64,000 nucleotides of DNA, from NCBI GenBank assembly GCA_025056565.1, contig JANWWA010000001.1, forward strand, positions 345,966-409,965, read 5' to 3'. Below are positions 53,630-57,630 of the stretch, piece by piece. The position numbers and the translations under genes are program-made. The notes below the pieces were generated by a model. The model saw only the letters and a list, made by a program, of their open reading frames with translations. It did no database searches and was not told where the DNA came from. The DNA comes from Chloroherpetonaceae bacterium. GTDB taxonomy: Bacteria; Bacteroidota; Chlorobiia; Chlorobiales; Thermochlorobacteraceae. Numbering within the stretch: the first letter of the stretch is position 1; each line of letters begins with the position of its first letter.

Positions 53630-55189
53630 ATGCCCAGCCTTGAGCCATCACTTGCCAGCAACGGATACGCTGTTACGCATCGTGAAGCAGCCCACACCAC
53701 CGATGTGCTGCCTACTTTACCCAGCAAGACTGTTCGGCAAGACCTGCTGCCGCCAGAGAGCATCAGACCGCTCAGGATTCTTTTTGTTACGCCGAAGGGC
53801 AAGAAGGAAGAAGACACTAGCCAAAAGCCGCTTTTTTCAATGGCAATAGCTGTCTTGGTGAGCATTACACCGCCGCAGCATGAGATTGAGCTTGTCGATG
53901 AACTTTTCGGTGACGAAATCAACTTCAATGGAGACTATGACCTTGTCGGCATTACGGCACGCACAATGAACGTTACACGCGCTTACGAGATTGCTGACGA
54001 ATTTCGTCGTCGTGGCAAGAAGGTCATTATGGGCGGCGTGCATGTGTCGTTTAACTATGAGGAAGCGATTCAGCACTGCGATTCGGTTGTCTGCGGCGAG
54101 GCAGAGAATCTTTGGGCATATGTGCTTCAAGATGTGGCAATGGGAAACTTGCAACCGCGCTACAATGCCACCGACTTCCCGCCTGTTACAGCAGTGCCTA
54201 TGATTGACTACGAGCGCATCTTCAAAGCGAGCAAGCGCGGCAAAGTCGATGCGCGCAAGTCTATTCCAATCTATATGACGCGCGGTTGTCCTTATACTTG
54301 CACATTTTGCGTTACCCCCAATTTCACTGGTCGGCTCTATCGCATCCAGTCGCTTGACACCATTAAAGAGCAAGTTGAGACAGCTAAGCGCGTTTGGTTC
54401 AAGAAAACCAAATACGGCGATAAGCCGTGGTTTATGTTCACGGACGAAAATTTGGGCGTCAACAAAGCCAAGATGTGGCAAATTATGGACATACTGAAAG
54501 AGTGCAACATCAAGTTTAGCTCATTTATCAGCATGAACTTCTTGGAGGATAAAGAATCCGTCCGAAAGCTGGTGGAAGCTGGTTGCGTGATGGCACTCGT
54601 AGGCTTTGAGTCTGTCAATCAAGAGACGGTCAATCACTACGACAAATGGAAGATGAACAACGTCAAGAAGTATGCACAGGTTATTCGGCAATGCCGAGAA
54701 ATGGGGCTCAATGTCCAAGGTAACTTTTTAGTCAACCCCGCTATTGATACATATGAGGACATGGCTGCGGTTGAAAAGTTTGTCGACGATAACCTTTTGA
54801 TGATGCCTATTTACTCCATTCTCACACCTTACCCAGGCACCACAATGTATAAGGAATACAAAGCCAAAGGGCTTATCGTTGATGAGGACTGGGACAAATA
54901 CACCGCTCACAACCTTGTGATTCGCTGCGACCGATACGACCCAATGGAGTTCCAAATTCGATACCTCAAGCATTTTCTCGGCTTCTACAAGTGGCGCACG
55001 ATTATCAAGCGCGTGCTTTTGAATCCGAACAAACTTATCAACCTTGTTACCAGCCTCATTTTTAAGCGTAATTTGAAAGATCAGCTTAAAAGCGTGCTCA
55101 GTGGCAAGAAAGCCCCTATTCAGAAGCAGCTCGAGGCTGCGCAGCGCCACAACACGATGCCGAAGTCACAAGTTGAGCCTGTAGCATAA
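53630..55189 (+). CDS. B12-binding domain radical SAM protein, BchQ/BchR-like candidate
   Basis: A 519-residue enzyme with a cobalamin-binding Rossmann domain (residues about 48-160, RILFVTPKG, HEIELVDELFG, GKKVIMGGVHVS) and a radical SAM core whose [4Fe-4S] ligands are Cys220, Cys224 and Cys227 (RGCPYTCTFC). Conserved WFMFTDENLGVN, MALVGFESVN and YPGTTMYKEY segments follow. It closely resembles, from memory, the green sulfur bacterial proteins that methylate C-8(2) or C-12(1) of bacteriochlorophyll c/d/e. If that is right, the host makes chlorosome pigments. Without a tree it could be another B12-radical SAM methyltransferase; I am sure of the family, not of the substrate. No other bch gene is in the window. 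Confidence 0.85.
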   Translation: MPSLEPSLASNGYAVTHREAAHTTDVLPTLPSKTVRQDLLPPESIRPLRILFVTPKGKKEEDTSQKPLFSMAIAVLVSITPPQHEIELVDELFGDEINFNGDYDLVGITARTMNVTRAYEIADEFRRRGKKVIMGGVHVSFNYEEAIQHCDSVVCGEAENLWAYVLQDVAMGNLQPRYNATDFPPVTAVPMIDYERIFKASKRGKVDARKSIPIYMTRGCPYTCTFCVTPNFTGRLYRIQSLDTIKEQVETAKRVWFKKTKYGDKPWFMFTDENLGVNKAKMWQIMDILKECNIKFSSFISMNFLEDKESVRKLVEAGCVMALVGFESVNQETVNHYDKWKMNNVKKYAQVIRQCREMGLNVQGNFLVNPAIDTYEDMAAVEKFVDDNLLMMPIYSILTPYPGTTMYKEYKAKGLIVDEDWDKYTAHNLVIRCDRYDPMEFQIRYLKHFLGFYKWRTIIKRVLLNPNKLINLVTSLIFKRNLKDQLKSVLSGKKAPIQKQLEAAQRHNTMPKSQVEPVA

Positions 55190-55411: not shown

Positions 55412-56104
55412 ATGAAAAAGACACTTCTCATTCTACTCTCTTCGCTGCTTGTGCCAATGCTACTTGCACAGGAACGCAATCCTCTCACTGCTGACCAAGC
55501 CTTAGAGCGCCTCAAAGAAGGCAATCGTCGCTTCGTAGAGGGCAAGACCATTCACCCGCGTCAAGACCCTGCGCGCATTCGTGAGGTTGCAAAGGGGCAG
55601 AAGCCTTTTGCAATTATCGTTGGCTGCTCCGATAGTCGCGTGCCAAATGAAATCATCTTCGACCAAGGGTTAGGCGACCTTTTTATCGTGCGCACTGCTG
55701 GTCAGGTCTCTGCCGCTGCTTCATTTGGTAGCGTGGAGTTTGCCAGTGCAGTGCTTGGGGCCAACTTGATTGTGGTGTTGGGACATACAGAGTGTGGTGC
55801 GGTGGCAGCAGCGTGCAACTACCAAAAGCCTGTACCTGGACATATCATCACGCTGGTCAATGCTATCAAGCCCGCTGCTATCACCGTGGAGAAACTGGTT
55901 AAGATGGGAAAGCTCTCAAAAGAGCAATTCGTCAATGCTGCTGTGCGTGAGAATGTGCGCTTGCAAGTCGAGCAACTTCAGCGATTAGAGCCAATCTTGG
56001 CAGAATTAGTTAGAACAGGACAAATCAAAATCGTTGGTGCAATCTACGACCTTGCCACTGGCAAGGTGGAGTTTCTCCCTGACGGAGAGACCGCACAACG
56101 ATAG
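55412..56104 (+). CDS. Exported beta-carbonic anhydrase
   Basis: A 230-residue enzyme that interconverts CO2 and bicarbonate. ATG 55412 gives the signal peptide MKKTLLILLSSLLVPMLLAQ; a start at 55343 would bury it. Zinc ligands are Cys72 (VGCSDSRVP), His125 and Cys128 (LGHTECGA), with the Asp74-Arg76 dyad; the VRTAGQVSAAASFGSVEFA block is the dimer and active-site region. Together these mark an active beta-CA. Export to the periplasm is unusual but documented for some members. It precedes an SbtA-like bicarbonate transporter by 83 bases, with a hairpin terminator between, which suggests a role in feeding or recapturing inorganic carbon at the cell surface. Confidence 0.94.
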   Translation: MKKTLLILLSSLLVPMLLAQERNPLTADQALERLKEGNRRFVEGKTIHPRQDPARIREVAKGQKPFAIIVGCSDSRVPNEIIFDQGLGDLFIVRTAGQVSAAASFGSVEFASAVLGANLIVVLGHTECGAVAAACNYQKPVPGHIITLVNAIKPAAITVEKLVKMGKLSKEQFVNAAVRENVRLQVEQLQRLEPILAELVRTGQIKIVGAIYDLATGKVEFLPDGETAQR

Positions 56105-56115
56105 CACATTTTCGG

Positions 56116-56140
56116 TGCGGAAGAGTTTGGCTCTTCCGCA
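56116..56140 (+). terminator. Terminator after the carbonic anhydrase gene
   Basis: A 10-base-pair stem (56116-56125 with 56131-56140) with a 5-base loop, followed by TCACCTTTTTG. It lies 12 bases after the stop codon and before sbtA, so carbonic anhydrase mRNA is probably made in excess of, or separately from, the transporter mRNA. Confidence 0.75.
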
Positions 56141-56187
56141 TCACCTTTTTGTGTATTTCATGTAACCATTCAACCTCAAACAGCAAA

Positions 56188-57246
56188 ATGGGCATTCAAG
56201 ATTTTACTGTCAGTCTGCTTTCGCCAATGGTCTTGGCGTTTGTCTTAGGCATCATTGCCACGCTCATCAAGAGCGACCTTAAATTTCCTGAAGAGCTTTA
56301 CATTGCACTCACTATTTACTTACTTGTCGCCATCGGGCTGAAAGGTGGATACAAACTTTCTACAACACCGTTTGGCGAATTCTGGAAGCCCGGCGTTGTC
56401 GCAATCGCAATTTGCATACTCATTCCAATTTGGTCATACTGGATTTTGCACAGGTTTGGCAAATTTGACATTGCCAATGCCGCTGCTGTGGCGGCGCACT
56501 ATGGCTCCGTCTCTGCTGTTACGTTTGCCGAAGCTGTTGCATTTCACGATAACCTCAAAGCGGCTTTGCTGGAAGAAAACCCTGCTTTGACGGAGACTGC
56601 CTTGCGAGCGATGGGTGCAACTTATGAAGGCTTTATGCCAAGCTTACTTACGATTATGGAAGTTCCCGGTATTTTGGTTGCGCTTTTTATTGCGCGCACC
56701 AGCAAAGTAAGCCTTGCACTGGCAAATGGCGGACTGTATGAGGAGGAAAACTCTCGAGCTGGTGCAGTGCTGCGTGAACTCTTGGCAGGCAAGAGCACTT
56801 TGCTGCTTGTTGGCTGCCTTGTCATTGGCGCTCTGGCTGGCAAGCGTGGCTGGGAGCAGGTTTCGCCATTTTTTGACACACCTTTTCGTGGCATTCTGAC
56901 GCTCTTTTTGCTGGAAGCAGGGCTGGTAACGGGGCGGCGACTGGCTGACTTGAAGAAAGTCGGTGGGTTTCTCATTGGCTTTGGTCTTATTATGCCTGTT
57001 CTGCACGCGATTTTGGGTATCGTGCTGGGCAAACTTGCCGGCCTCTCGATGGGCGGCGCAACCATTTTGGGCGTCTTATCAGCTAGTGCTTCCTACATTG
57101 CCGCCCCTGCAGCGGTGCGCGTTGCTTTGCCAGAGGCCAGTCCAACTTACTTTCTCACTGCCTCGCTAGCTATTACATTTCCGTTCAACATCATTGTCGG
57201 GCTACCGCTCTACCATAGCATTGCAAAACTTATTTACGGAGCATAA
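56188..57246 (+). CDS. sbtA: SbtA-type sodium-dependent bicarbonate transporter
   Basis: A 352-residue inner-membrane protein with about ten hydrophobic segments arranged as two halves. The N-terminus MGIQDFTVSLLSPMVLAFVL and the later AAAVAAHYGSVSAVTFAEAV match the SbtA/DUF897 family, as does GGATILGVLSASASYIAAPA, the inverted-repeat counterpart. ATG 56188 is preferred to an upstream start at 56149. In cyanobacteria SbtA imports HCO3- with Na+ and is inhibited by SbtB. Here an SbtB-like gene follows 12 bases downstream. The host is not a cyanobacterium, so whether it supports fixation or anaplerotic carboxylation is open. Confidence 0.92.
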   Translation: MGIQDFTVSLLSPMVLAFVLGIIATLIKSDLKFPEELYIALTIYLLVAIGLKGGYKLSTTPFGEFWKPGVVAIAICILIPIWSYWILHRFGKFDIANAAAVAAHYGSVSAVTFAEAVAFHDNLKAALLEENPALTETALRAMGATYEGFMPSLLTIMEVPGILVALFIARTSKVSLALANGGLYEEENSRAGAVLRELLAGKSTLLLVGCLVIGALAGKRGWEQVSPFFDTPFRGILTLFLLEAGLVTGRRLADLKKVGGFLIGFGLIMPVLHAILGIVLGKLAGLSMGGATILGVLSASASYIAAPAAVRVALPEASPTYFLTASLAITFPFNIIVGLPLYHSIAKLIYGA

Positions 57247-57258
57247 GGAGTACTCTCA

Positions 57259-57561
57259 ATGAACACCACACAACTTAAACTGGTTACCATTATTGCAGAA
57301 GACGGCTTAGAGGCGCGACTGGTGCGCGACCTGAAAGCACTGGGTGCGAAAGGATACACCATTGCCAACGTGCGTGGGGTCGGTTTGCATACTGACCGCA
57401 CAAACGAGTTTGAAGGCGAAAATATCCGCATTGAAACCGTCGTGAGCGAAGCTGTTGCCGATAAAATCTTGGAGCGCTTAGCTGCGCATTACTTCGACCA
57501 GTATAGCGTTATCGCATATGTGGAGCGTGTCGAAGTGGTGCGTGGAGATCGATTTGCGTAA
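57259..57561 (+). CDS. sbtB: SbtB-like PII family regulator of SbtA
   Basis: A 100-residue PII-like protein with the ferredoxin-like beta-alpha-beta order: LKLVTIIAEDGLEARLVRDL, GAKGYTIANVRGVGLHTDRT in the T-loop region, IRIETVVSEAVADKILERL, and a C-terminal YSVIAYVERVEVVRGDRFA. A good ribosome-binding site (AAGGAG) precedes ATG 57259. In cyanobacteria SbtB trimers bind adenyl nucleotides (AMP, ADP, ATP, cAMP) and lock SbtA. The C-terminal CGPxGC motif found in many cyanobacterial SbtB proteins is absent. Its position 12 bases after sbtA makes a partner role likely. Confidence 0.9.
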   Translation: MNTTQLKLVTIIAEDGLEARLVRDLKALGAKGYTIANVRGVGLHTDRTNEFEGENIRIETVVSEAVADKILERLAAHYFDQYSVIAYVERVEVVRGDRFA

Positions 57562-57604
57562 CTAAGCCGTGAGGTATGCACGAGGCAAACTTTCAGACCG
57601 TAAG

Positions 57605-57630
57605 CCCCTTTCCTAAATGAAGGAAAGGGG
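57605..57630 (+). terminator. Terminator after sbtB
   Basis: A perfect 10-base-pair stem (57605-57614 with 57621-57630), 6-base loop, followed by ACTTTTTCG. It ends the plus-strand cassette 43 bases after the sbtB stop, facing the convergent uvrA gene. Confidence 0.85.

Follow-up and report, generated by a model that had tools for sequence, protein, structure and literature searches.

SbtA transporters and their PII-like partners, SbtB, are best known from cyanobacteria. In the transporter Slr1512, Ser114, Tyr140, Ser324 and Ser327 have been proposed, and mutated, as HCO3- contacts (PMC8352866). The physiological role of the extracellular carbonic anhydrases (CAs) of cyanobacteria is described as largely unknown (PMC9865033), and most Chlorobiota encode just one CA and lack inorganic-carbon transporters, according to a review (PMC10880623). 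Related inorganic-carbon ideas are already known for proteorhodopsin-containing Bacteroidetes, some of them from the same springs (PMC4148732): the gene set of Polaribacter MED152 and of the Yellowstone bacterium Schleiferia thermophila was proposed to let a non-autotroph incorporate carbon anaplerotically under stimulation by light. Here we describe a CA-sbtA-sbtB cassette in a 64,000-nucleotide stretch (the window) of a Chloroherpetonaceae bacterium (assembly GCA_025056565.1, contig JANWWA010000001.1, positions 345,966 to 409,965 of the forward strand). Three intact open reading frames at 55412-57561 on the plus strand encode, in this order, a beta-CA, a transporter of the Sbt_1 family and an SbtB of the PII-like type. 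Matches to PF00484, PF05982 and PF00543 confirm the three-gene cassette that an earlier reading of the sequence (the original prediction) had placed there. The loci nearest to it come from metagenome-assembled genomes (MAGs) of Thermochlorobacteriaceae, and the host genus is that of Candidatus (Ca.) Thermochlorobacter aerophilum. What is new is the firm association of an exported CA with a second-class Sbt_1/SbtB pair, found in a photoheterotroph with a type-1 reaction center.

The exported carbonic anhydrase

The translated CA contains the motifs CSDSR and GHTECG, and with them the whole Cys-Asp-His-Cys zinc site and the Asp/Arg dyad. Its N-terminus, MKKTLLILLSSLLVPMLLA followed by QERN, has the features of a Sec-type signal at residues 1-19, as called by eye and by hydropathy (a hydrophobic leader, a small residue, then Q). 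The original prediction of a signal-peptide-bearing beta-CA with intact zinc ligands is thus upheld. The nearest solved structures are 2a5v and 1ym3. A leader is present in every complete CA of the CA-sbtA-sbtB loci that we read, while its sequence drifts. These CAs form one clade in the CA tree (93/100), and their nearest outgroup is the exported cyanobacterial CAs that adjoin the second SbtA class. The host genome encodes a second beta-CA, devoid of an export signal. A CA remnant was seen in a Leptospiraceae MAG (L007:5747-5971), upstream of an intact sbtA-sbtB pair; it is internally deleted, such that the signal peptide and the C-terminal tail are left and the zinc motifs are gone.

The transporter belongs to a second class of Sbt_1 proteins

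The transporter matches Sbt_1 (PF05982) at 367 bits, compared to a curated cut-off of 27. Its AlphaFold2 model (predicted local distance difference test score, pLDDT, of 92.4) finds the SbtA structures 7egl, 7cyf, 8zor, 7egk and 7cye as best Foldseek matches, with template-modeling (TM) scores of 0.75-0.86. The Sbt_1 proteins encoded by cyanobacterial genomes come in two kinds. In our tree, Slr1512 and six further rows (cyanobacterial proteins of ~390 residues) are set apart by a very long branch (100 by the Shimodaira-Hasegawa-like approximate likelihood ratio test, SH-aLRT), the length of which is not to be over-read, as the search was quick and the sampled proteins had been chosen for their likeness to the window protein. 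The window transporter groups with all the others, including the 330-residue proteins of those same cyanobacteria. It is 24-26% identical to cyanobacterial SbtA (25-26% to the SbtA of Acaryochloris and Pseudanabaena).

The two classes differ in their site residues. The Slr1512 type has FGAVS, Tyr140 and SSSDIS, whereas the window class has YGSVS, then Leu, Met or Val, and SASYIA; archaeal members of the latter deviate slightly. Of the four HCO3- contacts of Slr1512, the window transporter keeps two (Ser109 and Ser302), with Tyr140 replaced by Leu and Ser327 by Ala305; the equivalents of Ser114, Ser322 and Ser324 are retained. Clade position, identity and the two replaced contacts rule out a canonical, Slr1512-type SbtA. 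The transporter is an SbtA at the superfamily level only (Sbt_1, TC 2.A.83) and belongs to a second class. The original prediction of an SbtA-family transporter is therefore borne out for Pfam family and fold, and it fails at the level of the clade, as the tree places the protein outside that of Slr1512. A comparison of the cyanobacterial loci L098-L108 and L114 with L116-L121 shows that the second SbtA class comes with a divergent SbtB of its own there, in some cases with a CA bearing a Tat-like leader after it (L056, L037).

Linkage to carbonic anhydrases points to bicarbonate

A beta-CA gene lies within 1.5 kb of the window-class transporter in 21 of the 85 tree rows with enough flank, against a chance expectation of ~0.2% (arithmetic from two beta-CA genes in 2.9 Mb); sbtB adjoins the transporter in 73 of the 85. 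The linked CAs occupy no fewer than three widely separated branches of the CA tree (an exported type and two signal-less types). Their linkage requires eight state changes on the transporter tree, with the CA either upstream or downstream: Sec-exported and upstream in Chlorobi and Cyclobacteriaceae, Tat-like exported and downstream in some cyanobacteria, and signal-less and downstream in Sphingomonadales and other cyanobacteria. That unrelated CAs were recruited repeatedly and independently speaks for CO2/HCO3- as the shared substrate, and from such neighborhoods we infer bicarbonate transport by the second Sbt_1 class. Two Sbt proteins of Thiomicrospira pelophila, which may or may not be of the window class, rescue CA-deficient Escherichia coli (PMC12628692).

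SbtB and its likely control

The third protein had been predicted to be a PII-like SbtB, and both its fold and its position, adjoining the Sbt_1 gene with a start 12 nucleotides after the sbtA stop, agree with this. Beside the PF00543 match, the best match in the PDB is TTHA0516 (2cz4, 2e-29), followed by the SbtB of Cyanobium 7001; Foldseek with the model (pLDDT 88.9) returned 2cz4 and then SbtB and CPII. The T-loop (residues 45-52), the sole disordered part of the model, is shorter than that of cyanobacterial SbtB. The C-terminal R-loop motif CGPxGC was found neither in the window SbtB nor in any SbtB that we examined as a partner of the window transporter class. The absence of the motif, as originally predicted, is real, and its standing as a special trait is lost: about half of cyanobacterial SbtBs are without the R-loop (PMC10991534), so that we reject the notion that its loss is unusual. 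Since SbtBs that are devoid of the R-loop respond mainly to energy state (PMC10991534), a response to energy state is the likelier mode of control here. Control by cAMP is also possible, because the host genome encodes five class III nucleotide cyclases.

Conservation and distribution of the unit

The order CA-sbtA-sbtB, on one strand, was found in all eight evaluable genomes of the thermophilic clade (G000, G089-G093, G096 and G097) and at four loci of Cyclobacteriaceae and related Bacteroidota (L008, L011, L015 and L013, the last from Algoriphagus sp. AK58), in line with the conserved order that had been anticipated. Two clade genomes could not be evaluated, G095 as a contig end cuts the locus and G094, 81% complete, as it had no match. 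The flanking genes change among the loci (the upstream radical-SAM gene recurs only in Ca. T. aerophilum, those downstream in none of the loci examined); hence, it is the triad and not the neighborhood that is conserved. The radical-SAM protein itself (Table 1) falls below all NCBIfam cut-offs.

Across 98 genomes of Chlorobiales, Sbt_1 occurs in eight of nine genomes of the host family, in the only f4 genome (another family), in none of 86 of the Chlorobiaceae group (f2) and in neither of the two of f3. In other words, it is present in 9 of 10 genomes of the thermophilic clade and in 0 of the 88 other Chlorobiales, nearly all of which have ATP-citrate lyase. The distribution of ATP-citrate lyase is nearly the reverse: it is absent from the host genus, from g2 and from f4, and present in most of f2 and in both genomes of f3.

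Beyond the order, Sbt_1 was found in 89 of 393 sampled genomes of Bacteroidota, and the notion that SbtA is rare outside cyanobacteria is rejected. Among 28 newly read Bacteroidota loci outside the clade, 21 have sbtB. The sbtA genes of L010, L012, L014 and L065 (Flavihumibacter, Flavipsychrobacter) are closely related and have no sbtB and no CA as neighbors. Second Sbt_1 copies that are not accompanied by a CA occur in four genomes of the host family (G091, G092, G093 and G095, at L004:7714-8988, L006:1330-2304, L087 and L092), some of them directly downstream of the first sbtB. The locus of Ca. T. aerophilum (L003:5157-7371) is a mosaic. The SbtA there shares 87% identity with its L090 and L004 counterparts and 75% with the window protein, while for the SbtB it is the window protein that is closer (83%, against 54% for L090 and L004). 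This pattern suggests that lineages have recombined inside the unit. In a contig titled as a Bifidobacterium breve MAG (L042), an Sbt_1 gene occurs along with an incomplete gene that resembles a CA; this is unexpected for B. breve and the contig is possibly mis-binned.

Carbon metabolism of the host

The original prediction had allowed for a host that is a photoheterotroph incapable of CO2 fixation, and the genome agrees. It has a match to a type-1 reaction center and it encodes phosphoenolpyruvate (PEP) carboxylase. The RuBisCO large subunit (PF00016) had no match in the host genome (5 of 14 genomes matched as control). A search of the host genome alone for the citrate-binding domain of ATP-citrate lyase (PF16114) gave an uninformative control and was repeated across the 98 genomes of Chlorobiales; the domain is present in 80 of these and in none of the host genus, the host included. 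The genome thus indicates neither a RuBisCO-based CO2-concentrating mechanism nor autotrophy by the reductive tricarboxylic acid cycle. Ca. T. aerophilum and GBChlB are likewise described as photoheterotrophs without ATP-citrate lyase (PMC9560492), and anaplerotic CO2 fixation was hypothesized for the former (PMC5459899). In protein stable-isotope probing of a Yellowstone mat, 3.0-3.6% of the peptides labeled by 13C-bicarbonate were from Thermochlorobacter, called a photoheterotroph there (PMC12542760). This labeling is compatible with an uptake module, though cross-feeding could also bring the label.

Layout and transcription of the unit

The features of the unit are collected in Table 1. The sbtA-sbtB gap is 12 nucleotides long and the CA-sbtA gap 83 nucleotides. 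The hairpin in the latter has a minimum free energy of -23.6 kcal/mol (z -4.8); the corresponding gap of Ca. T. aerophilum (L003) also forms a hairpin, unrelated in sequence (z -3.6), and the CA-sbtA gaps of other relatives measure 5-21 nucleotides, or 65 nucleotides with no stable fold. With so strong a terminator-like hairpin between them, CA and sbtA may be co-transcribed only in part. It is plausible that partial termination would give more CA than transporter mRNA, and the hairpin might possibly be an attenuator or an mRNA-stability element. An Rfam scan of the unit returned no riboswitch or known RNA element. A scan for plus-strand promoters found none and is uninformative, as the promoters of Chlorobi and Bacteroidota differ. 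The claim of a self-contained three-gene unit holds for the conserved order and for the terminator after sbtB, which lies within the originally predicted range, and is weakened by the hairpin between CA and sbtA.

Table 1. Features of the CA-sbtA-sbtB unit and its upstream neighbor (window coordinates).
Feature	Position	Strand	Evidence
B12-binding radical-SAM protein, upstream of CA	53630-55189	+	weakly similar to HpnJ/BchE-type families
Exported beta-class carbonic anhydrase (CA), 230 residues	55412..56104	+	PF00484 E=4e-42; zinc ligands C-D-H-C
Terminator-like hairpin and U-run, CA-sbtA gap	56114..56142	+	13-pair stem then ACCTTTTT
Sbt_1-family (TC 2.A.83) transporter, second (non-canonical) class, 352 residues	56188..57246	+	PF05982 E=8e-110
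SbtB-like PII-like regulator, 100 residues, short T-loop, no C-terminal R-loop	57259..57561	+	PF00543 E=2.6e-21
Intrinsic terminator closing the unit	57605..57630	+	10-pair GC stem then ACTTTTT

Proposed mechanism and alternatives

We consider it probable that the cassette is a bicarbonate-acquisition module, in which periplasmic hydration of CO2 would feed an SbtB-gated import of HCO3- for anaplerotic carboxylation. After Sec export to the periplasm, the CA would hydrate ambient CO2, or CO2 that escapes from the cell, to HCO3-. The Sbt_1 transporter would then take up this HCO3-; like SbtA, it is probably a trimeric elevator-type symporter of Na+ and HCO3-. The SbtB, as a PII-like trimer, would plug the transporter from the cytosol via its T-loop in a manner set by adenyl nucleotides, closing it when the adenylate charge falls. 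The imported HCO3- would supply PEP carboxylase and fatty-acid and nucleotide synthesis, carboxylations short of autotrophy, and the second, cytosolic CA would convert HCO3- to CO2 for ferredoxin oxidoreductases.

Several observations weigh against this proposal. The CA is adjacent in 0 of the 28 newly read Bacteroidota loci outside the clade. Three genomes of the host family (G091, G092 and G093) hold both the module and an ATP-citrate-lyase domain; because of them, the module is not in a strict either/or relationship with autotrophy and marks the thermophilic clade, not strictly the loss of autotrophy. As for a source of Na+, a search for Na+-NQR in the host genome gave no match above cut-off, only ferredoxin-like domains. 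The terminator-like hairpin separates CA from sbtA. Finally, Tyr140 of Slr1512 is replaced class-wide by Leu, Met or Val, and Ser327 by Ala (or nearly always Ala). These changes, along with Tyr105 and Tyr303, would also suit a class with a different small anion as its substrate (formate or some other monocarboxylate), with the neighboring CA only managing periplasmic pH or CO2. A substitution at the S323-equivalent site of Shewanella SO_3758, the described residues of which (Ser-Ala-Ser) fit the window class, gave formate tolerance (PMC12093963). An SbtA-like protein of Labrenzia failed in bicarbonate uptake in E. coli (PMC4275256), and all alphaproteobacterial Sbt_1 members that we found are of the window class. 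We nonetheless regard another anion as unlikely, given the repeated recruitment of unrelated CA genes beside the class, the pairing with SbtB and the fold shared with SbtA.

It is similarly unlikely, and if anything slightly more so, that the periplasmic CA works in reverse, dehydrating HCO3- so that CO2 diffuses in, with the transporter a separate route, used only once CO2 is exhausted. An extracellular CA that aids CO2 uptake is described for Rhodopseudomonas palustris (PMC10880623). The hairpin would allow separate expression of CA and sbtA, and a cytosolic CA is also present. Yet, the CA is constantly linked to an importer-type gene in the clade, and in siliceous hot springs, with their alkaline pH, inorganic carbon is mostly HCO3-, a species that the transporter could take up directly. 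A role of the unit in keeping pH and Na+ balanced in alkaline mats, where Na+/HCO3- import would buffer the cytosol, in place of one in carbon supply, appears improbable: the same triad exists in chemoheterotroph lineages (Algoriphagus, Cyclobacteriaceae), and gating by SbtB suggests metabolic control. Least probable is that the three genes are neighbors with no functional connection. The hairpin in the CA-sbtA gap would permit it, but the order persists in all eight evaluable relatives and in Cyclobacteriaceae while the flanks change, and their CAs group as a single clade.

Implications and comparison with known systems

In the host, an extracellular CA has a probable bicarbonate importer as its constant genetic partner, and its role is open to a clean test. 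The module resides in photoheterotrophs and is absent from their sulfide-using autotrophic relatives, most of which have no reported inorganic-carbon transporters (PMC10880623). This distribution suggests that inorganic-carbon limitation can hit an aerobic mat photoheterotroph harder than a classical green sulfur bacterium. A wider proposal, which we put forward tentatively and with some doubt, is that the distinct SbtA-like class, the SbtB with a short T-loop and the repeatedly acquired CAs might together be a bicarbonate supply for organisms devoid of CO2 fixation, gained in thermophilic Chlorobi as autotrophy eroded, with the secreted CA as a working part; extracellular CAs of prokaryotes would in that case have a defined job. 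Annotations of SbtA outside the canonical clade cover a second class, and because its site residues are altered, the name alone is no proof of bicarbonate function.

With Slr1512-Slr1513 (TC 2.A.83) the window pair has in common the Pfam family, the fold, the adjacent PII-like partner and the Na/HCO3 serines 114, 322 and 324. It differs in its low identity, its separate clade, the replaced Tyr140 and Ser327, the shorter T-loop and missing R-loop of SbtB, the attached exported CA and a host in which the RuBisCO large subunit had no match. The closest solved structure to the SbtB, at 55-57% identity in the Foldseek alignment, is TTHA0516, a Thermus PII-like protein known from a structural-genomics entry (PDB 2cz4). 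The EcaB-type extracellular CAs of cyanobacteria and the signal-peptide-bearing beta-CAs of Gram-negative bacteria are likewise beta-CAs sent to the periplasm. Several of the exported cyanobacterial CAs that adjoin the second SbtA class have Tat-like signals and lie downstream of sbtB, whereas the host CA is of the Sec type and lies upstream. Polaribacter MED152 and S. thermophila from Yellowstone similarly combine a CA, a putative Na-dependent bicarbonate transporter and PEP carboxylase (PMC4148732); those hosts use proteorhodopsin and the window host a type-1 reaction center.
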